Part shown: piece by piece, positions 9,162-58,861 of the stretch
Position numbering within the stretch: position 1 is the first letter of the stretch
How the letters are laid out: each line of letters starts with the position of its first letter
Translations under genes and position numbers: made by a program
The notes under the pieces: generated by a model
What the model was told of the DNA's origin: nothing
The model's input: the letters and a program-made list of their open reading frames with translations, nothing else
Database searches by the model: none
Source: Cytophagales bacterium
GTDB taxonomy: Bacteria > Bacteroidota > Bacteroidia > Cytophagales > Microscillaceae
Direction of reading: 5' to 3'
Length of the DNA stretch: 64,000 bases
Assembly (NCBI GenBank): GCA_013298075.1
Contig: JAAFJG010000005.1
Span: 1-64,000 of the forward strand

Positions 9162-9361
9162 TCAAATTTTATTTTTTCGTATCAATTCTTTGATATATTT
9201 TATTGGTATATCTAAAAGATTTGCTATTTCAGGAATTTTCATACCTTTTGAAAAGCATTTTAATATTATTTCATTTTTGCTTCTTGCTTCGCCTTCTGCT
9301 TTACCTCTTGCTCTTCGGCAGCTTCAAAGTAAGCGTTTTCTACTAATTCTATTATACCCAT
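9162..9361 (-). pseudogene. third, frameshifted copy of the Rpn-like gene tail
   Basis: From the ATG at 9361 the frame reads MGIIELVENAYFEAAE like the ends of the two neighbouring copies. A small insertion then shifts it to a stop. In the next frame ARGKAEGEARSKNEIILKCF...IKYIKELI resumes. The normal stop is lost and the frame ends at 9162. It is the most diverged of three copies and carries a single KAEG unit. It has no N-terminal nuclease domain. Confidence 0.75.
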
Positions 9362-9476
9362 ATTTTTTTGTTGTTTAGTGATAGTACTAATGTTACTATC
9401 TAATTGTTGAGTAACGATATTTTTTTTAATGCTAATATAATTACAAGTAGAATAAAATATTTGACTTAATGAAACT

Positions 9477-9511
9477 AAAAAAGTTATTTTTTTGAATAAA
9501 ATAACTTTTTT
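9477..9511 (-). terminator. intrinsic terminator of tail copy 2
   Basis: AAAAAAGTTATTTT (9477-9490) pairs perfectly with 9498-9511. It lies downstream of the stop at 9572 on the minus strand and ends in a U run. Confidence 0.7.
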
Positions 9512-9571
9512 AAAGTTTGTTCATAATCAATATTTTATATCAGAATTATAGAAAAAATATACAATCGAATT

Positions 9572-9811
9572 TTATTTTTTACCTATCAATTCTTTGATAT
9601 ATTCTATTGGTATATCTAAAAGATTTGCTATTTCAGGAATTTTCATACCTTTTGAAAAGCATTTTAATATCATTTCATTTTTGGCTCTTGCTTCGCCTTC
9701 TGCTTTACCTTCTGCTTTACCTTCTGCTTTGCCTTCTGCTTTGCCTTCTGCTTTGCCTCTTGCTTCGGCAGCTTCAAAGTAAGCGTTTTCTACTAATTCT
9801 ATTATACCCAT
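9572..9811 (-). pseudogene. second copy of the Rpn-like gene tail, frame intact
   Basis: 79 codons from MGIIELVENAYFEAAEARG through five tandem KAEG units to KNEMILKCFSKGMKIPEIANLLDIPIEYIKELIGKK. It is nearly identical to residues 245-306 of the full gene at 10020-10940 apart from the number of KAEG repeats. It lacks the catalytic region and a recognisable promoter, so it is probably a silent duplicate. It could serve as a recombination donor for the active gene's C-terminus. Confidence 0.7.
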
Positions 9812-9925
9812 ATTTTTTTGTTGTTTAGTGATAGTATAATATTACTATTTAATTATTGAGTAATGATATTTTTTTTAATACCAATATAATTACAAGTAGA
9901 ATAAAATATTTGACACAATGAAACT

Positions 9926-9960
9926 AAAAAAGTTATTTTTTTGAATAAAATAACTTTTTT
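9926..9960 (-). terminator. intrinsic terminator of the full Rpn-like gene
   Basis: AAAAAAGTTATTTT (9926-9939) pairs with 9947-9960, identical to the hairpin at 9477-9511, downstream of the stop at 10020. Confidence 0.75.
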
Positions 9961-10019
9961 AAAGTTAGTTCATAATCAATGTTTTATATCAGAATTATAG
10001 AAAAATATACAATCAAATT

Positions 10020-10940
10020 TTATTTTTTACCTATCAATTCTTTGATATATTCTATTGGTATATCTAAAAGATTTGCTATTTCAGGAATTTTCATACCTTT
10101 TGAAAAGCATTTTAATATCATTTCATTTTTGCCCTCATCTTTACCTTCCGCTTTGCCTCTTGCTTCGGCAGCTTCAAAGTAAGCGTTTTCTACTAATTCT
10201 ATTATGCCCATATTTTTTTGTTGTTTAGTGATAGTACTAATATTACTATCTAATTGTTGAGTAACGATATTTTCTTTAATGCTAATATAATTGTAAATAA
10301 AATATAAAATTTTTTTGACTTTTGCATCATTATATCCTGCCTCTACTAAGTCTTTTATCAAATTTGTTTTCCATTTTAGTTGTGCTGCATCTGTTTTGGA
10401 GTCTTTATCTAAGGCTTTTCGCACTGCTAACATTATGTAACTAAAAATATTATCTTTGATAAAAAGTGTATTAAGAGGTTTTTTCAATATTTTGAATGTT
10501 AAAAATTTATACACTAAGTTTACTGTTTCATTTTTATAAACAAACTGAGACGGCTCATAACTTTTATTTTCATCACTATACAAAGCAAAGGTCATAATAT
10601 TTTGAGAAGAATATCTATCAAAAAGTCTATAAAAAGTTACAAACATTCTTTCTGAAAAATTATCATCTTTATAACCTTGTACTTCTATATGAAAATAAAT
10701 AACTTTTTCTAACCCATTTTTCAAAAAAACTTTGATAAGTTTGTCTGCTCTTTTTAAGCCCAAAGCCGTTTTATCTTGAATTTTTGCTAATTCTGTGTCC
10801 AAAAACTCACAAGGTTTGTTCATATCTACGTTATTTTTTACCCAATCAGGTAAAAAATAAGCCATAAACTCAAAAGAAAAATCTTCAATAATTGATTTCC
10901 AAAGTAAATCTTTACTAATTTCAACGATGTTATTTGCCAT
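10020..10940 (-). CDS. Rpn-like PD-(D/E)XK nuclease / putative transposase
   Basis: 306 residues. The N-terminal two thirds match the Rpn/PDDEXK_2 group: SFEFMAYFLPDWV, then a nuclease core with D in GLKRADKLIKVF and E-x-Q in IYFHIEVQGYKD, followed by MFVTFYRLFDRY. The C-terminal part is a charged stretch with KAEG-like repeats (EARGKAEGKDEGKNE) and a short helical motif, MILKCFSKGMKIPEIANLLDIPIEYIKELI, common at the ends of these proteins. Family members are linked to RecA-independent recombination or act as transposase relatives; the role in this organism is unknown. Two tandem copies of its tail lie immediately downstream. Confidence 0.8.
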   Translation of the reverse strand: MANNIVEISKDLLWKSIIEDFSFEFMAYFLPDWVKNNVDMNKPCEFLDTELAKIQDKTALGLKRADKLIKVFLKNGLEKVIYFHIEVQGYKDDNFSERMFVTFYRLFDRYSSQNIMTFALYSDENKSYEPSQFVYKNETVNLVYKFLTFKILKKPLNTLFIKDNIFSYIMLAVRKALDKDSKTDAAQLKWKTNLIKDLVEAGYNDAKVKKILYFIYNYISIKENIVTQQLDSNISTITKQQKNMGIIELVENAYFEAAEARGKAEGKDEGKNEMILKCFSKGMKIPEIANLLDIPIEYIKELIGKK

Positions 10941-11022
10941 TTTTTATTTTTTTTCTTATTTATAACGGAAAATAATGTATTTTAGTTTTTTTGATTAAAC
11001 ATTTTTTTGAAACTTGTGCATT

Positions 11023-12486
11023 TTATTTTTTATCCTTATTTTGTATTATATCAATTTCATCGATACCAAAATAACCAGCAATATTTCTATTATAATAAAA
11101 ATCTTTATGTTTAAAATCTTCGTGAAATAAAAAAATTGATTTTAATGCTTTAGGAGTTTGCTCTAATTTGATTGATTTTTCTTTTCTTTTTACGGCTTCT
11201 TGAATTTCTATAAATCTTTTTTGATTAAAATTGGCATATTTCGGAGCGACTAAAAATATTTCATAATAAGCTGAATTAACTAAATAAGCACTTGGCATTA
11301 TCATCAAAATAATCAAAAACAACATAATATTTTTAGATATATTTTTATAATTTGATACAAATACTATCATAATATTATCATCAATTTTATTTGCTTTAAA
11401 AATATATGAAGCTAAAATTTGCAGGTTGCAAAAAAACAATATTAAAAACAATAAATATAACAAACTTTGAACTCTTGGTATTTGATAATGTCCTAATCGT
11501 ACATTCAAGGCATATATCAACCAAAACAACATAAAAGATAAAAAAACAAAGAAAAATGGGTGAATTATTTTTTGAATATTTAGTTTAAAATTGATATGAA
11601 TTTGATAAAAAATAGGTATAAAAACGAAAGATAGTATCCATAGTGAGCCATTATTTAACCAATTTCCTACATCAGAAATAGTAAAATACAACGTTAAAAT
11701 GATTAGTTTGAGAATCGGTTTTTGTGCATAAAAATCTAAATTTTGTCCGCTTGTATCTATCGCATTTAGTCTTGCAAAATTACCGGGCGCAGATATCATC
11801 ACACAAGAAGCGATAAAAGCAATCACTAATAAATAAAAAATAGGATTACATATTTTTTTAGTATTTATATAATGATGTGTCCAAAGAAAAAATAAAATTG
11901 CTCCATGAAAAACAACCAATAATTCGTGACAACCAATCACAATTATATTCAAAAGTTGTAAAAAAATATACAAAAATATATTGTATTTTGATGTATCAAA
12001 TAAGTATCGAAATAAAAAACTATAAAAAATAAATAAAAAAATAATAGGCAAAAAGTAAGCATTTGCACCCACAAACCAATATAAAAATTCACTCAAAGAT
12101 GGTATCGCATATAAAATAAATGCAAAGAAAAAAGTGGCGTATAAAAATGAAGATTCTGTTATTTTTGAGGTATTAGTTTGTAATATATTTTTAAAAAAAT
12201 AATATAAAACTCCCCAAAATGATAGTAAAAATGATATAGTGATTATTTTTAATCCTATCATAGCCATATTAAAATCATATTTTAATGGATTAAGAAAATA
12301 AGCAGTGGTAACGACAAAATATCTTCCTGTAAAATTAAAATAATATTTACTAAAAAAAGCACTAAGTCCTTCTTTGCTTGACATAGCAAAATGAAAATCA
12401 TCATTTTGAGGTTGAATATAAAAAGCCAACACAAAAAAAGGTAAAATAAGAATAATTAAACCAAAATATATTACTTGTTTTTTCAT
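11023..12486 (-). CDS. multi-pass membrane protein, DUF6056-like
   Basis: 487 residues with about ten to twelve hydrophobic segments. It starts with a membrane anchor followed by YIQPQNDDFHFAMSS and FNFTGRYFV, and has a later loop VMISAPGNFARLNAID. The pattern (DD after the first helix, a GR motif, SAPGN.AR in a middle loop) resembles DUF6056 and related GT-C-type lipid-linked glycosyltransferases such as GtrII. A role in surface glycan modification is inferred only. MITE copy 2 ends about 20 bases before its start codon and may have replaced its native promoter. Confidence 0.6.
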   Translation of the reverse strand: MKKQVIYFGLIILILPFFVLAFYIQPQNDDFHFAMSSKEGLSAFFSKYYFNFTGRYFVVTTAYFLNPLKYDFNMAMIGLKIITISFLLSFWGVLYYFFKNILQTNTSKITESSFLYATFFFAFILYAIPSLSEFLYWFVGANAYFLPIIFLFIFYSFLFRYLFDTSKYNIFLYIFLQLLNIIVIGCHELLVVFHGAILFFLWTHHYINTKKICNPIFYLLVIAFIASCVMISAPGNFARLNAIDTSGQNLDFYAQKPILKLIILTLYFTISDVGNWLNNGSLWILSFVFIPIFYQIHINFKLNIQKIIHPFFFVFLSFMLFWLIYALNVRLGHYQIPRVQSLLYLLFLILFFCNLQILASYIFKANKIDDNIMIVFVSNYKNISKNIMLFLIILMIMPSAYLVNSAYYEIFLVAPKYANFNQKRFIEIQEAVKRKEKSIKLEQTPKALKSIFLFHEDFKHKDFYYNRNIAGYFGIDEIDIIQNKDKK

Positions 12487-16132: not shown

Positions 16133-16270
16133 CAATATGGGTGACATAGTTGTAAAGGCTATAAAGGCTTAAATTTAGTATAAAAGATTTTTTTGTATTT
16201 AAAACATTAATTAAAAATAGATACGACAAATTCCCGTAAGTATTTTTTATTCATTTAACCAGATACTAAA
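16133..16270 (+). repeat. 138-bp direct repeat, left copy
   Basis: From CAATATGGGTGACATAGTTG to CTAAA this segment matches 19600-19737 base for base except three substitutions that I can see. The two copies bracket a 3.3-kb block of a regulator and surface-protein genes. No reading frame spans the repeat. Confidence 0.85.
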
Positions 16271-19599: not shown

Positions 19600-19737
19600 C
19601 AATATGGGTGACATAGTTGTAAAGGCTATAAAGGCTTAAATTTAGTATAAAAGAATTTTTTGTATTTAAAACATTAATTAAAAATAGATACGACAAATTC
19701 CCGTAAGTATTTTTTATTAATTTAACCAAATACTAAA
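19600..19737 (+). repeat. 138-bp direct repeat, right copy
   Basis: Near-identical to 16133-16270. Its right end (CTAAA) abuts a 224-bp element with inverted ends. The rest of the 615-base gap 19544-20159 consists of that element (19738-19961), the CGGATTTAGCGGATT repeat (20055-20110) and unremarkable AT-rich sequence. Confidence 0.85.
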
Positions 19738-20411: not shown

Positions 20412-21250
20412 TTAAAATAAACTCAAAACTTCATTTGTTTTCAACATTATTTTTTCACATTCATAATTCGTAATCAAAACCTCAACACTTGCATTTTTAT
20501 CTCTTATCAAAGTTTGATAATTAGCATTTGCATAATCATTTTTGATAAAATTTGTATGCAAAAAATCATTTTTAGCCAGCCAATTTTTCAAAATTTCATT
20601 CGTTTTTTCTTTGTGTTCCAATACATTTGACAAAGCAAATTTAATATTTCGTTGGTGCAATTTTTCCAAAATATCTAATAATTGTATTTCGTGGTGTTCA
20701 TTCCAACCTGTAAAACCTCGTTTTCCATCATTATAAGTCCCCAAACTTATCAAATAGGGTGGGTCGCAATACACAAAATCATTTTCGTCCAAAATATTAA
20801 AATCAAATATTGTGAAGTCAAAACACGTAAAATCAATATTTTTTTGTTGTATATTCTGTGTAAATTGAATTAGATTTTTTCGCATATATCATTAAAACTA
20901 CTTCTTTCACGCCCAAAAGGATTGTTAAATTCGTGAGAATTATTAAATCTAATTTGGTGATTGAAAGAAAAAGCAATCAAAACAAATAAATCCAAAGGAT
21001 TTTTATGTGTGTTATAATGTTTGCGGATTTTTTTATAACCTTCTTCATTAGTTAAAGATAATTGAAATAGAAGTATTTGATTATCAACATTCAAACCAAC
21101 ATTTAAACCTCCTGCAAATAAATCTACAAAAATATTGATATTTTCAGGAAAAAAAGGCAAAATTTGGGGCAATAATTTCCCTTTTCCACCAATATAATTT
21201 AATGGAGATTTTGTTTGTTTAGATACTTTTTTTATTGTTACCATTTGCAT
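20412..21250 (-). pseudogene. Dam-type (D12 class) adenine methylase, broken
   Basis: The upstream frame (21250-20870) reads SPLNYIGGKGKLLPQILPFFP, then DLFAGGLNVGLNV, and FNHQIRFNNSHEFNNPFGRERSSFND. The downstream frame (20885-20412) carries motif IV VYCDPPY and the C-terminal half. They overlap by 16 bases at an A6 run (20875-20880 on the + strand); one extra A would fuse them as NDICEKNLIQF. In addition, the stretch between GLNV and LSLTNEEGY is about 40 residues shorter than in relatives, losing the usual NDxN region. The family methylates adenine (GATC in many members). Probably inactive. Confidence 0.8.
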
Positions 21251-21652: not shown

Positions 21653-23104
21653 TTAAACCTTATCAAAAAAATCTAAAAACAAACGAACTCCAAAAGCTGT
21701 GCTGATGTGCATCGTTGAAAATTCTGTTACCTTAAAAGCAGTTCCTGCAATATCTAAATGGGCATACGCTTGATGTTTTTCTGTAAATACTTCTAAAAAC
21801 TTACCTGCAGCAATACAACCCGCCATATCTTTGCCACTAAAATTACGAACATCAGCCACATCAGAACTAATATCATCTTCATAATCGTCCCATAAAGGCA
21901 AACGCCACAATTTTTCACCTGTTTTTAAGCCCGAATCATACAAATTTTTGGCTAATTCTTCGTTATTTGTCAATAAAGCCGCAGCCGCATACCCAAAAGT
22001 TCTGACCGCACTTCCTGTCAAAGTAGCAATATCAATCAAAATTTCAGGGCTATAATTTCTATTCAAATAAGTCAATGCGTCTGCCATTATCAATCTCCCT
22101 TCTGCATCTGTATCGATTACCTCAACGGTTTTTCCTAAATAAGAAGTAAGCACGTCACCGGGCAAATACGCATTACTTCCTAATAAATTTTCAGCCACAG
22201 GCACTGCACAAACCAAATGAATATCTAATTGTAGTTTAGCAGCCGTTTCTATGGCACCCAAAACCGCTGCAGCCCCACCCATATCGGATTTCATAAAGTG
22301 CATATTTGTACTACCTTTGATAGAAACGCCACCGTTATCAAAAGTAATTCCTTTTCCAACTAAACCAATTTTTTTTCTGCTATTTTTAGGTTTATATTCC
22401 AACAAAATAAGAGCTGGTTCTACTCGTCCTGCATTGCCAACCGCCAACAAACAACCTAATTTTTCTTTTTCTAATTGTGCTTTATCGAGTATTTTTACGT
22501 CAAAACCATTGATTTCTCCTGATTTTTTTGCCCATTCTATCAATGTTTTGGGAGTTTTATAATTGGGGGCATCGTTGACCAAATCCATAATTGACATTTG
22601 CGAAGTAGCAATTTTTTGTCCTTTGTCTATCAATATAATACTTTTTTCTTTTGAAATATTGGTATAAAAAGTAACCTCACTTTCAGCATTTAAAAACCAA
22701 TTTTTTTCTTGTTTTTTTTCTGTTTTATGTAATTGACTATCATAACTTCCTAACAAAATTCCGTTCACAATTTCACTTAAATAATTATCAGGAATATGTT
22801 GTATTTCTAAGCCGATTTTTCCTTGCAACGCATTTTTTTGTTTTAAAAAGAAAAAACGAAAGGCTCTAATCAATTCATTTTCTTCGTATTTTTTACCCAA
22901 ACCTAACAAAGCAATTTTATGCGTAGGCGTGTATAATATGAGCATAGATTTTATATCCGCAGAAAAATCATTTTCTATATTTGGAATATTCATCTTGTAT
23001 TTTTCTAAAATATTTTTTAAAAAAATAGCATAATCATCTGTTTTTAAAACAGGAATTAAAACAAGACTTTCGGCTTGATAAGCATTTGAGATTTTAAAAT
23101 TCAT
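21653..23104 (-). CDS. pepA: leucyl aminopeptidase (M17)
   Basis: 483 residues from the ATG at 23104. The C-terminal catalytic domain has the M17 metal- and bicarbonate-binding motifs: VGKGITFDNGGVSIK, MKSDMGGAAAVLG and VIDTDAEGRLIMADAL (usually NTDAEGRL; Asp replaces Asn here), followed by DIATLTGSAV. The enzyme removes N-terminal residues from peptides in the cytosol. The frame is open to 23173, but that upstream TTG sits next to the promoter box TATATTTG (23161-23168), so the ATG is preferred. Confidence 0.93.
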   Translation of the reverse strand: MNFKISNAYQAESLVLIPVLKTDDYAIFLKNILEKYKMNIPNIENDFSADIKSMLILYTPTHKIALLGLGKKYEENELIRAFRFFFLKQKNALQGKIGLEIQHIPDNYLSEIVNGILLGSYDSQLHKTEKKQEKNWFLNAESEVTFYTNISKEKSIILIDKGQKIATSQMSIMDLVNDAPNYKTPKTLIEWAKKSGEINGFDVKILDKAQLEKEKLGCLLAVGNAGRVEPALILLEYKPKNSRKKIGLVGKGITFDNGGVSIKGSTNMHFMKSDMGGAAAVLGAIETAAKLQLDIHLVCAVPVAENLLGSNAYLPGDVLTSYLGKTVEVIDTDAEGRLIMADALTYLNRNYSPEILIDIATLTGSAVRTFGYAAAALLTNNEELAKNLYDSGLKTGEKLWRLPLWDDYEDDISSDVADVRNFSGKDMAGCIAAGKFLEVFTEKHQAYAHLDIAGTAFKVTEFSTMHISTAFGVRLFLDFFDKV

Positions 23105-23160
23105 ATAATTTTTTTGGAATATTTGTGAAATATTTTTTTGGTGATGTCCCAAATTCGTTG

Positions 23161-23168
23161 CAAATATA
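23161..23168 (-). promoter_or_regulatory. -7 promoter box TATATTTG for pepA
   Basis: A perfect TAnnTTTG on the minus strand, 56 bases before the ATG at 23104. Confidence 0.5.
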
Positions 23169-23340
23169 ATCAATTTATGTAAAATGACAAAAACAAAGGT
23201 ATGAAATTTTTGGTAACATATAACATGAAGTTAAACCTCTCTCCTACTCTACTCTACAAATATTTCTATTGTCTATTTTTCTAAAATTATAGTTTTCCAA
23301 TCGAATAAAGTGTTATTTCCAAACTTTTCAAATATTATTT

Positions 23341-23414
23341 TTCCAAAATCTTTTTTATATTTATTTTATATTTAGCATAAAAATATTTAACTTTGCGAAA
23401 ATAAAAAGAAAAAT
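23341..23414 (+). repeat. repeated promoter segment, copy P1
   Basis: A 74-base segment from TTCCAAAATCTTTTTTATAT to the ariA start, containing the -7 box TAACTTTG (23388-23395). It is identical to 25827-25900 and nearly identical to 27011-27076 in front of lysS. Homology with the lysS copy appears to extend further upstream (TTATTTCCAAAC near 23313 and 26974). Confidence 0.9.
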
Positions 23415-24774
23415 GAAATCGAGTAAAATAAAAAAGTTCTCTGTTTATGGCTTGTTTGGAACAAGTGATGTACATATTGACTTCGAGGAGAATATAAAAA
23501 TTCTTATTGGTGAAAATGGACTTGGTAAAACTCAAGTCTTAAATCTTTTTTACTATACACTAACAAGAGATTTTTTTAAACTAAATGACTACAATTTTGA
23601 TAAACTAATTTTATGTTTCTCAAATGATAAATCAATCGAAATATCCAAAAAAAATATAACAGAGTTAGTCGAAGAAACCTATAAACACCCAATAATTATA
23701 GATATTATTGAAAATATTGGTTTTGCTCAATTTGAGGTATTACGTAATAAATTTGACCAAAATAAAGGTAAAAGTAATTGGAGAGAAATTGAAGAACAAT
23801 TTATTCCATCTAATAGTAAACTTAGACATAAGTATCCTGTCCAGAGAATATTTAGAGCATTTTTAGAACTTGAATTTGGAAACTCAAAAACAACAAGCCA
23901 AACTCTTGATAAATGTAAAAAAGAAATTGCAAACGAGATTAAAGAGGTAGACATTATGTATTTTCCAACATTTAGACGAGTCGAGGAGAATTTATATAAT
24001 TTGGGCTATGGTGAGGAAGACTTGAACTTTAATCAAGAAAATATGCTGATTCAGTTTGGTATGGATGATGTCCAAAAAAACTTCAATAAAATTGAAAATA
24101 TCATCGATAAACTTCTAAAAGAAGGCTTAGCACAATTTACCAAAGATATTCTTAGTATTGTAATTGATGACCCAACACCCACAGAAAGTATTCTCGATAA
24201 AATAACAGAAAATGATATAGAAATTATTTTATCAAGAGTTGGAAGTCTTCTTCCTGATTCACAAAAACAAGCAGTCAAAGATATTGTATTGAAAAAACAA
24301 CTTAAAAACCCTCTCTCTGCGTACCTTTTACATAAACTTGCTGATATATATGAAAAACAAAAAGAGTTAGATAATTCTATTAAAATTTTTAGAGATATAT
24401 GTAATAAATATTTGATTAACAAACAAGTATTTTACGATGAAAGTGGTATTAATATCTTCATAAAATCCGACTTGACACACGATAAAATTGAACTTAAATA
24501 CTTGTCTTCTGGCGAAAAACAAATCATTTCAATTTTTTCTAAGATATATTTATCAGACGAAAATAAAAGATTTATCGTGCTTTTTGACGAACCAGAATTA
24601 TCTCTTAGTATAATTTGGCAAAAACAACTTTTACCAGATATTATAAACTCCAAAAAATGTGATTTTTTATTGGCAGTTACTCATTCTCCATTCATTTTTG
24701 ACAATGAATTAGATGTATATGCAGTTGGTCTAAATGAATATATTAAACCCATAAAAGAAACCATTTTGTTATGA
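23413..24774 (+). CDS. ariA: AAA/ABC-type ATPase, PARIS AriA-like
   Basis: 453 residues of the RecF/SMC-like AAA ATPases found in defence systems. Walker A GENGLGKT (33-40), signature LSSGEKQ (364-370), Walker B FIVLFDEPE (Asp392, Glu393) and the switch His in VTHSPF (424) are intact. A long helical insertion separates the two halves. It overlaps the next gene by four bases (ATGA), a DUF4435 protein. In PARIS, AriA assembles around AriB and releases it when it senses phage anti-restriction proteins. Assignment rests on domain pairing, size and order; other ATPase-DUF4435 pairs exist. Confidence 0.75.
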   Translation: MKSSKIKKFSVYGLFGTSDVHIDFEENIKILIGENGLGKTQVLNLFYYTLTRDFFKLNDYNFDKLILCFSNDKSIEISKKNITELVEETYKHPIIIDIIENIGFAQFEVLRNKFDQNKGKSNWREIEEQFIPSNSKLRHKYPVQRIFRAFLELEFGNSKTTSQTLDKCKKEIANEIKEVDIMYFPTFRRVEENLYNLGYGEEDLNFNQENMLIQFGMDDVQKNFNKIENIIDKLLKEGLAQFTKDILSIVIDDPTPTESILDKITENDIEIILSRVGSLLPDSQKQAVKDIVLKKQLKNPLSAYLLHKLADIYEKQKELDNSIKIFRDICNKYLINKQVFYDESGINIFIKSDLTHDKIELKYLSSGEKQIISIFSKIYLSDENKRFIVLFDEPELSLSIIWQKQLLPDIINSKKCDFLLAVTHSPFIFDNELDVYAVGLNEYIKPIKETILL

Positions 24775-25697
24775 TAGATATAGAGCAACTGAGGGCAAGT
24801 AAAAATAAAGCACAAGTTGCTTTTCTTGAATTTGTACTTTCTATAAGAAAATATCCCAATCATTTATTTTGCTTTTTCGAAGGAAAAGATAATCCTTATT
24901 ATGTGCCAAGAATCAAACGTATTACCGAATTTTATCAACCAATAAAATGTGGTGGCAGAGATAGTATTTTGAAAGTTCACAAACTTATCTTGAATCATAA
25001 AGAATATGATAATTACAAAAAAGCCTTTTTTATTGATAAAGATTTTAATCAGCCTCTTGCACAATTAAATCCTCCTATTTTTGAAACGCCTTATTATTCT
25101 ATCGAGAATTTTTATGTTTCTGTTGATGTTTTTAAAGAAATTTTAGTCAATGAGTTTAATCTATCAGAATTTAATGATAGTAATATTTTTGAATCTTGTC
25201 TTTCTCTTTATCAACAAAGGCAAAATGAATTTCACGATGCTGTTTGTTTATTTAATTCTTGGTATGCGTGCCTAATTGAAATTAGAAACTCAACAGGAAA
25301 AACTACAGGTGTAATTTTAAATGAAAAACTACCAAGAGGTTACATTGATGTTACGCTTCAATCTGTAACTTCTAACTACAACTTTGAAACCATTAAAAGT
25401 ACATTTCTAAAAGCTACAGAAGTTGAAGAAGTTATCTTGAGTAATAAGTTAGATGACTTTGATAAGTGTGAAAAAAAATATGTTTTTAGAGGAAAGTACG
25501 AACTACAATTTTTAATAGATTTTATTAGGTTACTTTTGACTGATAGTAAAAATGAAAAAACAATTATTAACAAAAACATCAACTTTACTTTTGGCGATGC
25601 AAGTTCGATAGGACAACAGCAAGCCTTGCTTATCTTTTCTACTTATGCAGAAACTCCAGAAAATCTAATTGAATATTTACAAATGGTAACGAAGTAA
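24771..25697 (+). CDS. ariB: DUF4435 TOPRIM-like nuclease, PARIS AriB-like
   Basis: 308 residues with the DUF4435 pattern: FFEGKDNPYYVPRI (Glu37, Asp40), KCGGRDSILKVHKLI, AFFIDKDFNQ (Asp89, Asp91) and YYSIENFYV (Glu112). These acidic positions fit a TOPRIM/OLD nuclease-like active site. In PARIS the released AriB is the toxic effector, cutting host tRNA and stopping phage growth. It is translationally coupled to the upstream ATPase. The C-terminal half is helical and not further identifiable. Confidence 0.75.
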   Translation: MIDIEQLRASKNKAQVAFLEFVLSIRKYPNHLFCFFEGKDNPYYVPRIKRITEFYQPIKCGGRDSILKVHKLILNHKEYDNYKKAFFIDKDFNQPLAQLNPPIFETPYYSIENFYVSVDVFKEILVNEFNLSEFNDSNIFESCLSLYQQRQNEFHDAVCLFNSWYACLIEIRNSTGKTTGVILNEKLPRGYIDVTLQSVTSNYNFETIKSTFLKATEVEEVILSNKLDDFDKCEKKYVFRGKYELQFLIDFIRLLLTDSKNEKTIINKNINFTFGDASSIGQQQALLIFSTYAETPENLIEYLQMVTK

Positions 25698-25826
25698 AAT
25701 TTGTTATATAATCCATTTACACTTATTTATTCACATAGACAATAAAAATCAATCTAAAATAAGATAAACAATTTCATTATGAAAGTAAGTTGTTTAAGAT
25801 AAGGGAGAGATTTTAAGACATAGAAA

Positions 25827-25900
25827 TTTCCAAAATCTTTTTTATATTTATTTTATATTTAGCATAAAAATATTTAACTTTGCGAAAATAAAAAGAAAAA
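25827..25900 (+). repeat. repeated promoter segment, copy P2
   Basis: 74 bases identical to P1 (23341-23414), with -7 box TAACTTTG at 25874-25881. It follows the ariB stop by 129 bases and precedes the small gene at 25927. Confidence 0.9.
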
Positions 25901-25926
25901 TAAAGTCAAATTAATAATCTTACACA

Positions 25927-26157
25927 ATGAAAAAACACGATTTTTTGAATTTAAAAATTGGTAGTATTCAAGAATACCCAATGGTTATTAAGAAGAAAGA
26001 TTTAGATTATTGGAAAAAGTTAGGCTGGTTGACTTATACTGAAGTTAGATTACCAGAAGGCGATGAAGAGGCGTTTATGCTTTATGGAAAAATTAAGAAA
26101 AGTGAAATATTGATTTTTAATAGACCTACTTTTCAGAGCATTATCAAATTATTATAA
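25927..26157 (+). CDS. small protein of unknown function in the defence island
   Basis: 76 residues, MKKHDFLNLKIGSIQEYPMVIKKKDLDYWKKLGWLTYTEVRLPEGDEEAFMLYGKIKK..., with no signal peptide or membrane segment. I do not recognise it. It has its own promoter copy (P2) 45 bases upstream, and a toxin-antitoxin pair follows after 121 bases. Position between two defence modules suggests an accessory or antitoxin-like role, but nothing in the sequence shows this. Confidence 0.5.
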   Translation: MKKHDFLNLKIGSIQEYPMVIKKKDLDYWKKLGWLTYTEVRLPEGDEEAFMLYGKIKKSEILIFNRPTFQSIIKLL

Positions 26158-26278
26158 AAGTTCGTTGAAATAAAAATAATAGTTTTTTTTAGGATAAATT
26201 TCGATGTTTTTTCAAATTTCCTAATATCTGCAATAATTCGTTATTGATTATCGTTATAAAAATAAATAAACTAAAAAT

Positions 26279-26506
26279 ATGCGAACATTGCAAATAAAAG
26301 TGAGTGAAACTGACTTTCAAAGATATAACTTAGGAAGTGGAGAAATAAAGTTTACTGATTTAGTAGCGGCAGTAAGTCGTGAATATGCACGAGAAACACT
26401 TCTGGCGTGTAATAAAATTGCTGAACAAGTAGGACTTTCTAACATGACAATAGAAGAAATTAATGCTGAAATTAAAGCAGTAAGAGATGCAAAAAATAAT
26501 TCTTGA
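26279..26506 (+). CDS. antitoxin of a PIN toxin-antitoxin pair
   Basis: 75 residues, MRTLQIKVSETDFQRYNLGSGEIKFTDLVAAVSREYARETL.... A short beta strand followed by helices fits a small DNA-binding antitoxin of the kind encoded before PIN-domain toxins. Its 3' end overlaps the toxin start by 20 bases, the usual coupling in such pairs. It should neutralise the toxin and repress the pair's promoter. Confidence 0.7.
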   Translation: MRTLQIKVSETDFQRYNLGSGEIKFTDLVAAVSREYARETLLACNKIAEQVGLSNMTIEEINAEIKAVRDAKNNS

Positions 26507-26903
26507 TACAAATATTATTGTGTCTGCACTCATTTCAAATTCTATTCCAAGTAATATTTTGTACGAACTGGTACTATCTGAAAAAGTTAAAAATTATCTC
26601 TCAGAAGAGATTTTTACTGAATATGTGGAGGTATTAAACAGAGATAAATTTACCAAGTTTGTTAACTTCAAAATAAAAGCGGAAGTAGTATTAAAGAAAC
26701 TACGCGAAATCTCAATTTTCTATAAAACAGATAAAAAAATAGAAATTTTGGCTGACGCAAGTGATAACAAATTTTTAGAATTGGCTGCTGTAAGTAAGGC
26801 AGACTATTTGATAACAGGTAATACACTTACAATAACAGAGTTTGAATATACACGAATCTTGACCCCAAGAGAATATTGGGATAGTTACGCACCACGAGAA
26901 TAA
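26487..26903 (+). CDS. PIN-domain toxin (putative ribonuclease)
   Basis: 138 residues with the PIN pattern: LDTNIIVSALIS (first Asp), SEEIFTEYVEVL (Glu), ILADASDNKFLELAAVSKADYLITGN (Asp residues and the ITGN loop). These acidic residues form the Mg-dependent RNase site; the last usual TGDxDL position is TGNTLTI, one acidic residue short of some relatives. The gene overlaps its antitoxin by 20 bases. The module lies between promoter copies P2 and P3. Confidence 0.85.
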   Translation: MQKIILDTNIIVSALISNSIPSNILYELVLSEKVKNYLSEEIFTEYVEVLNRDKFTKFVNFKIKAEVVLKKLREISIFYKTDKKIEILADASDNKFLELAAVSKADYLITGNTLTITEFEYTRILTPREYWDSYAPRE

Positions 26904-27010
26904 TAAATTTAGATATTACTATAATCTTCGCAAATATTCTGAAATACTATACTCATCTTTATAAAATAATATATTATTTCCAAACTACTCAAAAAAAAAC
27001 AATATTACTT

Positions 27011-27076
27011 TTCCAAAATCTTTTTTATATTTATTTTATATTTAGCATAAAAATATTTAACTTTGCAAAAATAAAA
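27011..27076 (+). repeat. repeated promoter segment, copy P3 (lysS promoter)
   Basis: The first 56 bases are identical to P1 and P2, including the -7 box TAACTTTG (27058-27065). The box lies 26 bases before the lysS ATG. As lysS is the housekeeping gene, this is probably the original copy. Confidence 0.85.
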
Positions 27077-27091
27077 GAATTTTATAAAAAA

Positions 27092-28813
27092 ATGCAAAAA
27101 CTTAGCGACTTAGAGATTTTACGCAGACAAAAATTACAAGAATTGCGTACATTAGGCATCGAGCCTTACCCCGCACCACTTTATCCAATTACTCATAAAA
27201 GCAACGATATAAAACAAAATTTTGATACCAATCCTGACGATTTTACCTCTGTTTGTCTGGCAGGTCGTGTGATGAGCATACGCATACAAGGCTCAGCGGC
27301 TTTTGCAGAATTGCAAGATGGCGAAGGACGTATTCAAATTTATTTGCGTCGAGATGATTTATGTCCCGATGAAGACAAAACTTTGTATAATACAGTATTC
27401 AAAAAATTGGTCGATTTAGGTGATTTTTTGGGCGTAAAAGGATATGTTTTTAAAACGCAAATGGGCGAAACTACGATTCATGTAACTGAATTTACTATTT
27501 TAGCCAAATCTCTAAAACCTTTGCCTGTCGTAAAACGCGATGAAGAAGGCAATGTATATGATGAAGTTACTGATGTAGAATTTCGTTATAGACAACGTTA
27601 TGCTGATTTGATTGTCAATCCACAAATCAAAGATACATTTATCAAACGCACTAAAATTTATCAAACGATTAGAGAATATTTTAATCAATATAATTATCTA
27701 GAAGTTGAAACACCTATTTTGCAAGCAATTCCGGGTGGAGCAACTGCACGCCCATTTATTACACATCATAATGCGTTGGATATTCCTTTGTATTTGCGTG
27801 TTGCCAACGAATTATATCTCAAAAGATTGATTGTAGGCGGTTTTGAAGGCGTTTATGAATTTGCAAAAGATTTTAGAAATGAGGGAATGGATAGAACACA
27901 TAATCCTGAATTTACCGTTTTAGAATTTTATGTGGCGTATAAAGATTATATTTGGATGGCTGAATTTACCGAAAAAATGTTTGAAAAAATCGCCCTTAAT
28001 TTATATAACACGACTGAAATAAAAGTGGGTGAAAATACGATAAGTTTCAAAGCACCTTTTCGCCGTTTGACTATGTATGATGCTATTCAAGAATATGCCA
28101 AAATAGATATTTCAAATCTTGATGAAAATGGTTTGCGTGAGGCGTGTAAAACGTTGAATATTCCTACTACAACTTCGATGGGAAAAGGAAAATTGATTGA
28201 TGAAATTTTTGGAGCAACTTGTGAACATCATCTCATTCAACCAACTTTTATTACCGATTATCCTGTAGAAATGTCGCCATTAACCAAAAAACATAGAACA
28301 AAAGCAGGTTTGACCGAGCGTTTCGAGTTGATTGTGAATGGAAAAGAAATTGCAAATGCGTATTCGGAATTAAATGACCCAATAGACCAAAGAGAGCGTT
28401 TTGAGGAGCAAATGAAATTGCAACAACGTGGAGATGACGAGGCAATGTTTATTGACCAAGATTTTTTACGTGCTTTAGAATATGGTATGCCGCCTACTTC
28501 GGGCATTGGTTTTGGTATGGATAGAATTGCGATGCTTTTCACTGATTCACCTTCTATTCAAGATGTATTATTTTTCCCTCAAATGCGTCCTGAAAAAGTG
28601 GTTGAATTAGCAAAAACAGAAGATTATTTAGCTTGTGGTGTATCTGAAGCCTTAATTCCACTTTTGCAACACATGAATATTTTGACGATTGAAGATTTAA
28701 AAAAATCAAATCCTAACAAAATATTTAATGATATTGGTGGCGTAAGAAAGAAAATGAAGTTAGATAATGTAAAATTACCTACCAAAGAAGAAGTTGAAAA
28801 TTGGGTGAAATAA
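27092..28813 (+). CDS. lysS: lysyl-tRNA synthetase, class II
   Basis: 573 residues. The N-terminal OB-fold anticodon-binding domain (about 50-150; VCLAGRVMSIRIQGSAAFAELQDGEGRIQIYLRR) is followed by the class II core with motif 1 (ETPILQAIPGGATARPF), motif 2 (FRNEGMDRTHNPEFT) and motif 3 (SGIGFGMDRIAMLFTDSPSIQDVLFFPQMR). A C-terminal extension of about 60 residues (LLQHMNILTIEDLKKSNPNKIFNDIGGVRKKM) is common in Bacteroidota LysS. It charges tRNA-Lys and is intact. Confidence 0.97.
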   Translation: MQKLSDLEILRRQKLQELRTLGIEPYPAPLYPITHKSNDIKQNFDTNPDDFTSVCLAGRVMSIRIQGSAAFAELQDGEGRIQIYLRRDDLCPDEDKTLYNTVFKKLVDLGDFLGVKGYVFKTQMGETTIHVTEFTILAKSLKPLPVVKRDEEGNVYDEVTDVEFRYRQRYADLIVNPQIKDTFIKRTKIYQTIREYFNQYNYLEVETPILQAIPGGATARPFITHHNALDIPLYLRVANELYLKRLIVGGFEGVYEFAKDFRNEGMDRTHNPEFTVLEFYVAYKDYIWMAEFTEKMFEKIALNLYNTTEIKVGENTISFKAPFRRLTMYDAIQEYAKIDISNLDENGLREACKTLNIPTTTSMGKGKLIDEIFGATCEHHLIQPTFITDYPVEMSPLTKKHRTKAGLTERFELIVNGKEIANAYSELNDPIDQRERFEEQMKLQQRGDDEAMFIDQDFLRALEYGMPPTSGIGFGMDRIAMLFTDSPSIQDVLFFPQMRPEKVVELAKTEDYLACGVSEALIPLLQHMNILTIEDLKKSNPNKIFNDIGGVRKKMKLDNVKLPTKEEVENWVK

Positions 28814-28937
28814 AATTTATTTTTTTTGTAAATACTTTTGATTTTTTTTGAAAGTATTTACAAAAATGTTATTTTTTTTAAAATATATTTGTTATTTTTG
28901 CAAATATTTTTTTATAACCTTAAAAAATGATGATAAT

Positions 28938-31103
28938 ATGGAATATTATATTTCTCTTTTAGATGATACAATTAAAAATAATGTTTCTTTTATGGTTGAA
29001 GAACCTTCAATAAACATTACTTTAGATATATTTGAAAATACTAAAAGTGCAGATTTGAATATAAACAAAGTATCAGATATTATTTATAGACAATATTTGC
29101 AGATTAAAAAAATATTAGTACAAAATGAAAATAATATTATGTTCATTAATACACTAATATTATTCAAAATTGCTGATTGCTCTAAAAATAATGAAGCGTA
29201 TAAAGAAAAAATTCAAGAATTTACCAATCAAAAATATAATATTTTATTGAATAAATATGATAAAGTATTCGTTATAAATCACATCAAGGAACTAGCAATA
29301 AAATTGAGTATTGAAATAAATGATGATATAGTTGATAAAATAGTCTCTTTTATCAATCAAATGAATTTAGGATTAATTGTAAATAATTATTCTGTAAAAA
29401 TGAATAAAATACTTGGTCAAGTTTTTGAAAAAATTATTACAAAAAAAGAAATAGGTGCATATTATACAAACGAAAATACGACTAAATATATAACAGAAAA
29501 TTGTATTATTCCAAGTTTAATTTTAGAATGGGCAAACTTAGAAACTTCTTTATTTAATTACTTAGAAGACTATAAAAATGAAAATAAAATATCTCTTGTT
29601 GAATATTCGATTAAGCAAAATATTTTATTAAAAAATGTTATATTTAAACTCATAGAAAAATTTGATACATCATTATTGCTCAAATCTATTCATCAAATAA
29701 AAATTATAGATATTTCTTGTGGTTCAGGTTCGTTTATTTTTTCTTCTTATTATTTATTAAAAGAGATACTTCAAAAAATAGATTTTAAAAATAATATAAA
29801 TAATTATTCTGAAATATTTGAAAATAATATTTTTGGTATTGATATAGATATTGATGCAGTTAATATATTAAAATTTCGTATTTTTATTGAAAAATTGTTT
29901 GAGGAAAAAATGGTAAATTCTGATTACACTCGCTTAACAGATAATTTTATTATAGCAAATTCTTTACTTTATAATAAATCTCACGAAAAAAAAACATCAT
30001 TATTTGAAGTTGATAATAATAACGAAGAACCAATTTTTGAATCAAATGATAAATTAAAATATATTATTAAAAATGGAGGGTTTGACGTTGTTCTGGGTAA
30101 TCCACCTTATTTAGAATACAAAAATATTCTATCTTATAAAATTGAAAACTATAAAAGTGAAAAATGTAATAATTTATATGCCTTTATGCTCGAAAAAAAT
30201 TTTGATATTTTGAAAGAAAATGGTCACATGGGAGTGATTATACCCATATCTTATATATCAACAAAAAGAATGAAACCTATTAGAAAATATTTAATAGAAA
30301 ATTCTCAGTATCAATTTTGTTCGAATTATGCAGACAGACCTTCGTGTTTGTTTAATGGCGTGCATCAAAAATTAAATATTGTATTATTAGAAAAAAAAAC
30401 ATTACAGAATAATAAAAAAGTTTATACTACAAACTATTTACATTGGTATTCAGAAAATAAAAACAATATCTATGACGTAATTTCGTATCAAGAAAATAAA
30501 TTTGAAACAGAAGATTTTTTATTTAAAATTGGGAATGAAATAGAAGAAAATATCATTAAAAAACTTTGTTTTAATAATAATAAATCTTTATCAGAAAATA
30601 TTGGTTTTAACAAAGACTATGCGGTTTGGGTAAATATGCGTATGACTTTTTGGAATAAATCTTTTGTAAATCCGCAGAAATCAAATGAATACAAAGTATT
30701 CTATTTTGATTCAAAAGAAAATGCTGTTTTATTTTCTTTATTATTAAATTCTAATATTTTCTTTTTTTATTGGGAGTGTATTTCTGATGTTTGGCATATA
30801 ACTTTAAAGGATTTATCGCATATAAAGATTGATTTTAATGATTTTGATAATATACAAAAACAAAAAATGTTAATTCTATACCAACAATTAGAAGATAATC
30901 TTGAACTCAATAAAAGAGAAATAAATACAAAACAAACAGAGTTTGAATATCAACATAAAAAAGATAAAAAACTTATTGATAAAATCGATTTATTGTTTAA
31001 AGATTATTTCATTTTTACAGATGGAGAAATAGAATATATAAAAAATTATCAATTAAAATTTAGATTAAATGGAGAATTATCTAATTACTTAAATGAAATA
31101 TAA
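28938..31103 (+). CDS. N6-adenine DNA methyltransferase of a restriction locus (Eco57I/TaqI-like)
   Basis: 721 residues from the ATG at 28938; the open frame reaches 28848, but the -7 box TATTTTTG (28893-28900) lies inside that extension. Motif X region GAYYTNENTTKYI, motif I IDISCGSGSFIF (near 256) and motif IV GNPPY (near 388) identify a gamma-type adenine methylase. The C-terminal 250 residues are likely a target-recognition region (TLKDLSHIKIDF). It is followed after two bases by a chimeric remnant and then a McrC-like nuclease, so it was probably the protective methylase of an McrBC/LlaJI-like system. Confidence 0.85.
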   Translation: MEYYISLLDDTIKNNVSFMVEEPSINITLDIFENTKSADLNINKVSDIIYRQYLQIKKILVQNENNIMFINTLILFKIADCSKNNEAYKEKIQEFTNQKYNILLNKYDKVFVINHIKELAIKLSIEINDDIVDKIVSFINQMNLGLIVNNYSVKMNKILGQVFEKIITKKEIGAYYTNENTTKYITENCIIPSLILEWANLETSLFNYLEDYKNENKISLVEYSIKQNILLKNVIFKLIEKFDTSLLLKSIHQIKIIDISCGSGSFIFSSYYLLKEILQKIDFKNNINNYSEIFENNIFGIDIDIDAVNILKFRIFIEKLFEEKMVNSDYTRLTDNFIIANSLLYNKSHEKKTSLFEVDNNNEEPIFESNDKLKYIIKNGGFDVVLGNPPYLEYKNILSYKIENYKSEKCNNLYAFMLEKNFDILKENGHMGVIIPISYISTKRMKPIRKYLIENSQYQFCSNYADRPSCLFNGVHQKLNIVLLEKKTLQNNKKVYTTNYLHWYSENKNNIYDVISYQENKFETEDFLFKIGNEIEENIIKKLCFNNNKSLSENIGFNKDYAVWVNMRMTFWNKSFVNPQKSNEYKVFYFDSKENAVLFSLLLNSNIFFFYWECISDVWHITLKDLSHIKIDFNDFDNIQKQKMLILYQQLEDNLELNKREINTKQTEFEYQHKKDKKLIDKIDLLFKDYFIFTDGEIEYIKNYQLKFRLNGELSNYLNEI

Positions 31104-31105
31104 AA

Positions 31106-31579
31106 ATGAATGTGATAGATTTATTTTCAGGAGTTGGAGGGTTTTCGATAGGATTAAAAAATATAGGTTTTAATATTGTTGCTTTCAAAAGGCGTTGGGA
31201 TTGGGAATATGTGCCAATAGATTACATAGACGCAGAAAATCAAACTATTCAAATAACAAACAAAAAATATAGTTGGGCAATATTTTTGGAAAAAATCAAT
31301 GAAAAAATAAGTGAAATTACAGAAAGCGAAGACAAACAAATGGGAAACCGTTTTGTGAATATGGCTGATAATATCATCACAGAAGAAGTTTTAAAAAATA
31401 AAATTATGTTTTATTTGTGGTTTGATATTTTTAAAAATGAGGACAAAAAAGATAAAAACTATATTTTCAAAACCGCAGAAAAAGACTATTTTAAATATGC
31501 AGATTTGTTTCACAAAGAAAATGGCACAAAAACCCTTTTAGCATTTTTTGACTATCATAAAATATCCGAAAAATCATGA
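31106..31579 (+). pseudogene. in-frame chimera: start of a C5-cytosine methylase joined to the end of an McrB-like GTPase
   Basis: Residues 1-27 (MNVIDLFSGVGGFSIGLKNI then GFNIVAF) are the N-terminal SAM-binding motif I of a Dcm-type C5-methylase. From residue 28 (KRRWDWEYVPIDYID) onward the sequence resembles the C-terminal end of McrB/LlaJI-R1-type AAA GTPases (EDKQMGNRFVN, NKIMFYLWFDIFKNE). The methylase catalytic Cys and all McrB Walker motifs are absent. A large deletion with a junction near 31184-31190 best explains this. The product cannot have either activity. It overlaps the next gene by four bases (ATGA). Confidence 0.75.
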
Positions 31580-33237
31580 AAATATTGATAGAACAATTTG
31601 ATTATGACATCAATACGATTGAAAATCTATTGCCACAAATATTCCTCACGCTTAAGCAAAATGCAAAGGTAAGCGTGGATTTAGTGGGATATTACAATCA
31701 TTTTGAAATCAATGAAACCATTATTATTTTACCTAAAATTTTTTTGAACGAAAATAATAATTGTGTTTTTGGTAACATTCCTGTGTCGGATTTTATTACT
31801 GAAAATTCATTAGAAATTTTAAAAAATCATCAAAAATCAAACTCAGATATTGATTTTGTCTATCGTTTTGCTTTTATTTTTTACTTGTCTTTGCGTGAAT
31901 TTCAACAACGAAATTCTGATAATACTATCACAAAAGCATCAAATACCAAAAATATTATTTCTAATATTGAAAAAACAGATATAAGCGAATTGGATTTAGT
32001 TTTTAGTTTGTTGCGTTTTTATCAAGAAAATAAAGATTTGATTATTTTTAAAGAAAAAGAAACAGAAAAACAGCATTTCAAAAAAACAAATTGGACAAAA
32101 ACTACTCATAAAAAAAATCCTATTTTTCAAGATAATACGCCTATTTACACAGAAAACAACCAGAAAAACAAAACACAAGATAATGATAATCAATTATTGC
32201 GCATTTTTTTTGCGGTTTTGTATCGTTTCAAAAAACAATATAATTTTAATATTTCATTAGAAAATAAATCTATTCAAAAAATAAATCAAGATTTTGATAG
32301 AAAATCATTACAAATCTTAAAAAAAATAAAAAATCAATATTTTAGCGATAAGTTCAAAAAATTATTATTGCTTTTGATAAGTTATTTTGAAAAAAGAGAT
32401 AAAACAAGTGCAAAAGAAAGCAAAGAAGAATTTATTTTGTGTGATAATTATAACATTGTTTTTGAGGATATGATTGATAAACTTTTATCAGATAACAATG
32501 CTACTATCGAAAAAATGAAAAATCAAGATGATGGAAAAATAGTAGACCATATTTTTGAATATAAATCTTTTTTTGAGCCTGACAACATTTTTTATATTGG
32601 AGATGCCAAATATTATAAGCAAACAACGCAATATAGCAAAAATAGTATTTACAAACAACATACTTACGCCAAAAACATCATTCAATACAATATAAATCTA
32701 TTTAATGATAGTAAACCAAATAATTTGGTGCGTTATCGTGATGAACTTACAGAAGGATATAATATTACACCCAATTTTTTTATTCAAGGATATATTGACC
32801 ACCAAAATATCGCAGATTTTTCGGATAATTTTCAAAAAGATAACACCCAGAAACCAAAAATAAGTTTCCACTTTGAAAATCGTATTTTTGATAGAGATAC
32901 TTTATTTGTTTATAATTTTCGTATAAATTTTGTTTTTGTTTTACAAAGTTACATTGAAAATACAGAAAATAATCTACAAGAATTTAAAAAACACACAAAA
33001 GAAACCATCAAAAATGAAATCTATACACATATTCAACAAAAATATGATTTTTATATTTTAACGCCACAAACCAATATAAGTACATTTGTAAAAGATAATT
33101 TTAAACTTTTGAATGGAAAAATTTATCAAAATTCTAATGATAAAACGCATTTGATTTTAGGCTTGGAGAAAAATCATATTGAAAATGAAACCATTAAAAA
33201 TCAATTTAAAAATTGTATAATTCCTTACCAAAAATAA
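31576..33237 (+). CDS. McrC/LlaJI-R2-like restriction endonuclease subunit
   Basis: 553 residues. The N-terminal part is poorly conserved and Asn/Lys-rich. The C-terminal half holds a PD-(D/E)XK core, FEPDNIFYIGDAKYYK, with Asp343 and Lys345 in the GDAKYY motif, as in McrC-like nucleases. In such systems this subunit cuts DNA under control of the McrB GTPase. Here the GTPase is reduced to a fragment, so this nuclease is probably not activatable unless a partner exists elsewhere. The reading frame is intact. Confidence 0.75.
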   Translation: MKILIEQFDYDINTIENLLPQIFLTLKQNAKVSVDLVGYYNHFEINETIIILPKIFLNENNNCVFGNIPVSDFITENSLEILKNHQKSNSDIDFVYRFAFIFYLSLREFQQRNSDNTITKASNTKNIISNIEKTDISELDLVFSLLRFYQENKDLIIFKEKETEKQHFKKTNWTKTTHKKNPIFQDNTPIYTENNQKNKTQDNDNQLLRIFFAVLYRFKKQYNFNISLENKSIQKINQDFDRKSLQILKKIKNQYFSDKFKKLLLLLISYFEKRDKTSAKESKEEFILCDNYNIVFEDMIDKLLSDNNATIEKMKNQDDGKIVDHIFEYKSFFEPDNIFYIGDAKYYKQTTQYSKNSIYKQHTYAKNIIQYNINLFNDSKPNNLVRYRDELTEGYNITPNFFIQGYIDHQNIADFSDNFQKDNTQKPKISFHFENRIFDRDTLFVYNFRINFVFVLQSYIENTENNLQEFKKHTKETIKNEIYTHIQQKYDFYILTPQTNISTFVKDNFKLLNGKIYQNSNDKTHLILGLEKNHIENETIKNQFKNCIIPYQK

Positions 33238-57156: not shown

Positions 57157-57160
57157 AATA

Positions 57161-58750: not shown

Positions 58751-58861
58751 AGCAAGTAAATAGGCTGATAAAAATTAGCAAAGTAAATGTTAATTTATAA
58801 TAAAAAATAAATATTTTCATTAAAAACTAAAAATATTTTTGGAAAATTGAAAAAAACATTT

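Follow-up and report, generated by a model that had tools for sequence, protein, structure and literature searches.

We analysed a stretch of 64,000 nt from the draft genome of a Cytophagales bacterium (hereafter the window), in which two accessory modules, a predicted PARIS system and a predicted PIN toxin-antitoxin pair, lie one behind the other upstream of lysS, with a segment of the lysS promoter present in three direct copies around them. We consider that the two modules were probably inserted in succession at the lysS promoter, each insertion duplicating its target.

Genes and repeats of the locus

The locus exhibits the following features (positions in the window).

21653..23173, minus strand: pepA-like leucyl aminopeptidase (M17), the left neighbour (Pfam Peptidase_M17, 1e-106)
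23304..23339, plus strand: L, the left flank of P1, resembling the left flank of P3 (anchored alignment and BLAST)
23340..23414, plus strand: P1, with a TAACTTTG box at 23388 (direct-repeat comparison)
23413..24774, plus strand: predicted AriA, AAA ATPase of PARIS (PADLOC AriA, 1.1e-29; Pfam AAA_15)
24771..25697, plus strand: predicted AriB, DUF4435/Toprim effector of PARIS (PADLOC AriB, 4.3e-37; Pfam DUF4435, 1.8e-42)
25827..25901, plus strand: P2, with the box at 25875 (direct-repeat comparison)
25927..26157, plus strand: ORFan of 76 aa, the first gene after P2 (no profile match)
26279..26506, plus strand: putative antitoxin of 75 aa, overlapping the toxin gene (tblastn conservation)
26487..26903, plus strand: predicted PIN-domain toxin (TIGR00305, 82.1 bits, cut-off 29.15; PIN_3, 2.4e-20)
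26965..27009, plus strand: L', the left flank of P3, a diverged copy of L (BLAST and anchored alignment)
27010..27066, plus strand: P3, before lysS, with the box at 27058 (direct-repeat comparison)
27092..28813, plus strand: lysS, lysine--tRNA ligase with a C-terminal DUF4332 extension (TIGR00499, 601.9 bits, cut-off 427.6; Pfam)

By its sequence, the first module is a PARIS system: AriA and AriB are adjacent and the acidic residues of the Toprim domain are in place, as in the known systems. These residues of AriB (E37, D89 and D91) are invariant in all three aligned homologues, and we infer that they are equivalent to the E26 site of the Escherichia coli protein. The second module is predicted to consist of the ORFan and a PIN toxin-antitoxin pair. 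The 76-aa ORFan has no match in Pfam, PADLOC or NCBIfam, and was present in one of 193 genomes of the order, its own, with none in the 192 others. The 75-aa putative antitoxin has no match in Pfam or NCBIfam; tblastn matched this partner gene in 23 of 24 other toxin loci. With a toxin above the curated TIGR00305 cut-off and a conserved partner gene, the pair is classified as toxin-antitoxin. The five module proteins match no recombinase, transposase or integrase in Pfam and PADLOC, in agreement with the first-pass annotation, which had described modules without an integrase.

The three local direct repeats of the segment P are certain. A 57-nt segment starts at 23340, 25827 and 27010, within a base of the positions proposed in the first-pass annotation, and P1 and P2, for which identity over 74 bases had been claimed, are 100% identical over 75 nt. 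Between P1 and P3 there is an identical run of 58 nt, starting one base earlier and ending at a G/A mismatch. Their BLAST alignment reaches 112 columns (86% identity; 23304-23406 against 26965-27076), because their left flanks are alike too. The likeness of these two flanks is not due to chance: they obtain an anchored score of 17, against a maximum of 10.5 in a null set of 400 AT-rich genome segments. L and L' differ much more from each other than do the copies of the P core. The left flanks exhibit no likeness between P1 and P2 or between P2 and P3 (anchored score 0), nor do the right flanks of P1 and P2 past the 75 nt, where 71 of 400 random segments score equally well. The copies are thus nested, P1 having its left flank in common with P3 and its right side in common with P2.

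Every copy carries the TAACTTTG box, which fits TAnnTTTG, a motif that we take to be the -7 box of Bacteroidota. The box is enriched before the long ORFs of the 123-kb contig: of 77 such ORFs, 33 have it correctly oriented in the 100 nt preceding them, and 16 have it in the reverse orientation. The distance from the box to the start codon is 25 nt for AriA (23413), 52 nt for the ORFan (25927) and 34 nt for lysS (27092). The proposal that each module has its own lysS-type promoter copy is thus borne out in that each P is positioned to drive the next gene, and each module is presumably transcribed from its own copy. With an essential gene's promoter as the target, every inserted module would gain a housekeeping promoter.

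Probable successive insertions at the lysS promoter

The nested flanks, in which P1 resembles P3 on its left and P2 on its right, fit two successive insertions, the toxin pair first. In the first step, the ORFan and the PIN toxin pair would enter between L-P and lysS, giving L-P-module-L'-P-lysS. In the second step, PARIS would enter at the left copy, giving L-P1-PARIS-P2-module-L'-P3-lysS. The route would most likely be homologous recombination over a short shared segment, not a recombinase of the modules' own. The first-pass annotation had claimed that recombination between any pair of copies would delete a module and that lysS would retain its promoter. The layout of the repeats supports this for an event that we treat as hypothetical: crossing-over between P1 and P2 could excise 2,487 bp, and crossing-over between P2 and P3 could excise 1,183 bp, lysS keeping a working promoter in both cases. 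Toxin activity would select against the loss of a module, and would so preserve the repeats.

The same layout may be read in the opposite order, the modules having come first and the lysS promoter having later been copied before each of them (promoter capture through local duplication, template switching or gene conversion). In that case, regulation and not insertion would be reflected in the repeats. The sharp ends of P2 (left-flank score 0, no right-hand likeness past 75 nt) and the usable distance from the box to the start codon in all three copies speak for such copying, as does the fact that no empty site is known. However, P1 carries the upstream flank of P3 for about 36 nt past the promoter, which a promoter copy would not need, and the repeats at several other loci described below (G006, L091/L093 and L098) are fragments of coding sequence. 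We therefore regard later copying of the promoter as rather unlikely. No empty allele was found for the lysS site or for any compared site (searches including G020 and G007), nor any strain with other modules at lysS, and for want of an empty allele it is from the repeats that we infer the mechanism of the two insertions.

A further possibility is that addiction and defence modules of this lineage need no recombinase to move, since crossing-over between the copies of a duplicated target would release them as circles; we offer this tentatively and think it unlikely. If it were true, circles would re-enter by homologous recombination at the same or a similar promoter, housekeeping promoters would be safe docking sites where the essential gene always regains its promoter, and the toxicity of the module would protect the repeats from loss.

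Occurrence of the repeated segment

The draft genome itself (4.7 Mb in 153 contigs, completeness 97.9%) was searched for P, and of 126 first-look candidates 40 were scored. Among five matching places, the strong ones are P1, P2 and P3 alone; the other two are weaker (39 nt at 82% identity, 57 nt at 77%) and resemble promoter sequence in general. Across 291 genomes of the order, nothing outside its own genome matches better than a 44-nt stretch of a congener (86% identity), and lysS is absent from the 4.9 kb around it. We accordingly rejected P as a general promoter repeat. The first-pass annotation had named such a repeat, found genome-wide before many genes, as the observation that would speak against its reading; what is seen is local repeats in three strong copies. 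This locality marks the repeat as target sequence and not as an IS or a dispersed element, and the position of P3 suggests that P is lysS's own sequence.

As a background, 27 local direct-repeat entries were obtained in 356 kb of the same genome (window included), three of which are the promoter copies; the two background regions inspected (C83 and C70) contain tandem paralogues. Another repeat pair of the window, at 16133 and 19600, was considered as a second case and rejected, as it belongs to a dispersed family with at least 29 matches listed. A search of viral contigs with a 46-nt piece of the promoter gave no matches, and one distant AriB match was found in viral contigs. Plasmid records (25 and 7, each below 60% identity) gave no lead to a vehicle.

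Neighbourhood of lysS in relatives

Nine lysS loci from eight genomes of the family were surveyed, with one upstream gene scanned per locus (in seven, the closest ORF of 70 aa or more; in L058 and L062, the closest longer one). These genes are ordinary or unrecognised, including citrate synthase, SHMT, AcrB, sigma-70 and others. There is no recognised defence gene among the genes scanned at the nine loci, and the sole PADLOC match is a weak one to a MacB/FtsX permease. The nine stretches cover between 1.1 and 6.8 kb on the upstream side of lysS, and none contains pepA. The congeners G001 and G002 gave no lysS match; in G002 pepA lies in a different neighbourhood, and in G001 the contig ends about 119 nt upstream of pepA. 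Since relatives carry ordinary genes upstream of lysS, the idea of a standing cassette site (hotspot) at lysS, also part of the first-pass annotation, is not supported.

Other loci of the PIN toxin pair

Matches to the toxin were found in 38 of 291 genomes, and the loci of the best 24 other than our own were examined. Flanking direct repeats of at least 60 nt are present at 8 of 25 loci (window included), against 20 of 608 control anchors, which overlap and so are not independent; 17 of the 25 loci have no flanking repeat by this criterion. Genome-wide copy numbers of the repeats were then considered; each genome yielded up to 203 first-look candidates, of which no more than 40 were scored. 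Four of the eight positives (L144, L149, L151 and L153) have repeats dispersed wholly or partly in their genomes, and are therefore arrays and not unique duplications. At L161 the repeat is the start of the module itself, and at L165 it is weak (66 nt at 80%). Our initial view that most positive loci are unique target duplications was withdrawn on account of these dispersed repeats; after the checks, two of the eight remain, the window and G016. G006, which resembles the lysS case most closely, stands outside the count, since its left repeat lies just beyond the limit of 1.29 kb set by the size of the loci.

The toxin pair of G006 corresponds to that of the window with 79% identity. Together with further ORFs, it has an intact acyl-CoA dehydrogenase gene on one side and, on the other, a second, truncated copy of that gene's promoter and start. 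The repeat is 225 nt long (90% identity) and comprises the promoter and the first 49 codons of the acyl-CoA dehydrogenase gene; in its own genome it is found in two strong places, and a third match is weak (73 nt at 74%). For the truncated second gene start, duplication of the target is the best reading. In G016 a segment of 103-107 nt occurs three times around two toxin modules, these being the three places found in the genome; the anatomy is that of the window, three copies bracketing two modules, with a different sequence. G006 and G016 suggest that the same process is at work elsewhere.

Some toxin loci raise another explanation, in which a recombinase supplied in trans uses P as its attachment site (integron-like or cis-mobilisable-like) and the region is an array of two cassettes. 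Relatives of the toxin pair do lie amid dispersed direct repeats in G007 and, seemingly, in G010, G101 and G020. The flanking repeat of G007 has 25 matches, many in same-strand clusters; those of G020, G101 and G010 are dispersed wholly or in part, and copies of the G010 repeat with up to 90% identity are present in G101, which belongs to another family. These four loci look like cassette arrays. Chromosomal integron cassette arrays can carry toxin-antitoxin genes, and the locus resembles them in its tandem modules and in the repeats, all of one orientation, that border each of them. In contrast to integron arrays, P folds into no attC-like hairpin beyond what its shuffles give (five folds, z from -0.26 to 0.67), no integron integrase exceeds the cut-off in any of 18 genomes, our own included, and the strong copies of P are three in number, all at this locus. 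P is also unlike the repeats of the arrays when compared by eye. An integron-type site was rejected on the fold and the integrase search, and a recombinase acting in trans on P appears decidedly improbable.

Other PARIS loci

The PARIS set consists of 24 named loci, two more that are apparently among the same sites, and the window (27 entries, 23 of them usable). L105 and L114 were dropped as being without AriA or upstream sequence, and L089 and L090, apparently the same sites as L108 and L112, as having less than 200 nt upstream. A locus was counted as flanked if direct repeats of 60 nt or more lay on both sides of it, no farther than 1.5 kb away. By this criterion, 4 of 23 loci (window included) have flanking repeats, against 6 of 321 control anchors, where the six stem from two repeat pairs and the anchors overlap and are not independent. 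At L091 and L093, on two cyanobacterial contigs, a fragment of the 3' end of the upstream gene is repeated 87-104 nt after AriB; these two are one site, so that the independent positive cases are three. At L098, 264 nt of the upstream gene are repeated, up to the contig end. We count L091/L093 and L098 as further parallels to insertion with target duplication. No flanking repeat by the criterion is present at 18 of the 23 loci, and a fifth locus, L092, exhibits only a 36-nt match among repeats recurring nearby.

A connection between PARIS and lysS is tempting because AriB of E. coli cleaves foremost tRNA-Lys(UUU), then tRNA-Thr(UGU) and more weakly tRNA-Asn(GUU) (PMC12409363): PARIS might have been recruited beside lysS, with AriB cutting tRNA-Lys and a common control being advantageous. 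lysS is, however, beside PARIS at none of the 26 other loci (many with flanks of up to 10 kb, several on short contigs), and we give such a functional pairing hardly any credence.

Core identity and flank divergence

An identical core between diverged flanks, the block that a crossover might leave, is seen in 8 of 12 repeat pairs from these loci (p <= 0.0016), and is absent in L093, L098 and both pairs of G016. The same signature is exhibited by 18 of 56 other local repeat pairs taken as a control (p <= 0.005), so that an identical core is no proof of crossover, and we rejected it as a diagnostic. The divergence of L and L' may reflect age, selection on the promoter, a diverged donor sequence or gene conversion, among which we make no choice, such core-identical mosaics being frequent in local repeats.

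Relation to known systems

The locus matches "insertion with long target duplication", and the process is thus not new in kind. Nobusato et al. (2000) are reported to have found the pattern between two Helicobacter pylori strains, and it is said to be frequently associated with restriction-modification genes (PMC1643837); "long and variable target duplications" are mentioned for all types of restriction systems (PMC3031569). As in the cases described there, a module lies between long direct repeats of its target, and the repeats (75 nt for P1 and P2; a core of 57-58 nt, or 112 columns, for P1 and P3) are far longer than a transposon target duplication. Unlike the restriction cases presented in these reports, the lysS locus combines PARIS with a PIN toxin pair, has an essential gene's promoter as its target and seemingly holds two stacked insertions. 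The H. pylori case as reported rested on the comparison with a second strain, whereas no empty allele is available for the lysS locus. The essential gene's promoter as target and the two stacked insertions seem to be what is new here. In the open-access literature, outside which most subscription journals lie, we found no report of a target-duplication insertion of PARIS or of a PIN toxin pair, nor, in the open-access literature, of defence cassettes in Bacteroidota.

Hotspots of antiviral systems have been described in P2-like phages and P4-like satellites of E. coli (PMC9122126); in contrast to the hotspots presented there, the PARIS of the window stands at a housekeeping promoter. In Arabidopsis, transposed genes were found between direct repeats, with circle formation and homologous re-insertion proposed (PMC2869330). 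Direct repeats of host sequence flank the moved genes there as at the lysS locus, but that work, as far as its account goes, concerns a eukaryote and is not a study of addiction modules.

The entry of small defence and toxin-antitoxin modules into chromosomes without a recombinase is a poorly understood route, which the lysS locus addresses through apparent stacked insertions before an essential gene whose order can still be read. Insertion in two steps further predicts that excised circles and clean empty alleles should occur.

Genes and domains around lysS

Directly downstream of lysS lie a putative methylase and a putative endonuclease, so that lysS is flanked by defence genes on both sides. 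The features of this neighbourhood are as follows.

20412-21250: D12-type adenine methyltransferase, divided between two overlapping ORFs
28637-28813: C-terminal DUF4332 extension of LysRS (residues 516-573)
28848-33237: Eco57I-like methylase, 157-aa ORF and LlaJI-like endonuclease, immediately downstream of lysS

Residues 1-33 of the 157-aa ORF resemble a C5 methylase. The D12-type methyltransferase is apparently broken. In the homologue search, most LysRS relatives align up to residue 571-573 and others end near residue 500; judged from these alignments, the DUF4332 extension thus seems variable among relatives.

In a congener (G001), the contig carrying pepA ends about 119 nt upstream of this gene, and no lysS match was found in that genome. 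Repeats at that place might produce such a result.

Repeats around toxin and PARIS modules in other genomes

Repeated segments also accompany such modules elsewhere, as at the following loci.

L205 (genome G016 of the order), 9284-11297: segment of 103-107 nt, three copies around two toxin modules
L092 (Bacteroidales MAG), 1214-2300: PARIS amid imperfect-palindrome repeats with inverted GCACATTTGCAATTTGAGGTGCT arms

The first of the two toxin modules in L205 has apparently decayed. The repeats around PARIS in L092 may represent an integron-type array. Three loci of G007, another genome of the order (L217, L218 and L207), exhibit clustered direct repeats on the same strand, up to about 430 nt long and with 25 matches in the genome. 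Two of the clusters are near short open frames resembling the C-terminus of a tyrosine recombinase (C13:18713 and C11:512833), and a piece of about 60 nt of the repeat is also present in several of the order's other families. These clusters are possibly an undescribed type of cassette array.

Other repeats in the window

Two further kinds of repetition were identified in the window.

16133-16270 and 19600-19737: 138-nt repeat, two copies
55582-58751: tandem duplication of 1.58 kb, 93% identity

The 138-nt repeat belongs to a dispersed, MITE- or REP-like family, with 29 matches listed genome-wide, the majority at 95-100% identity. Its two copies in the window are separated by 3.3 kb containing two outer-membrane-like genes.
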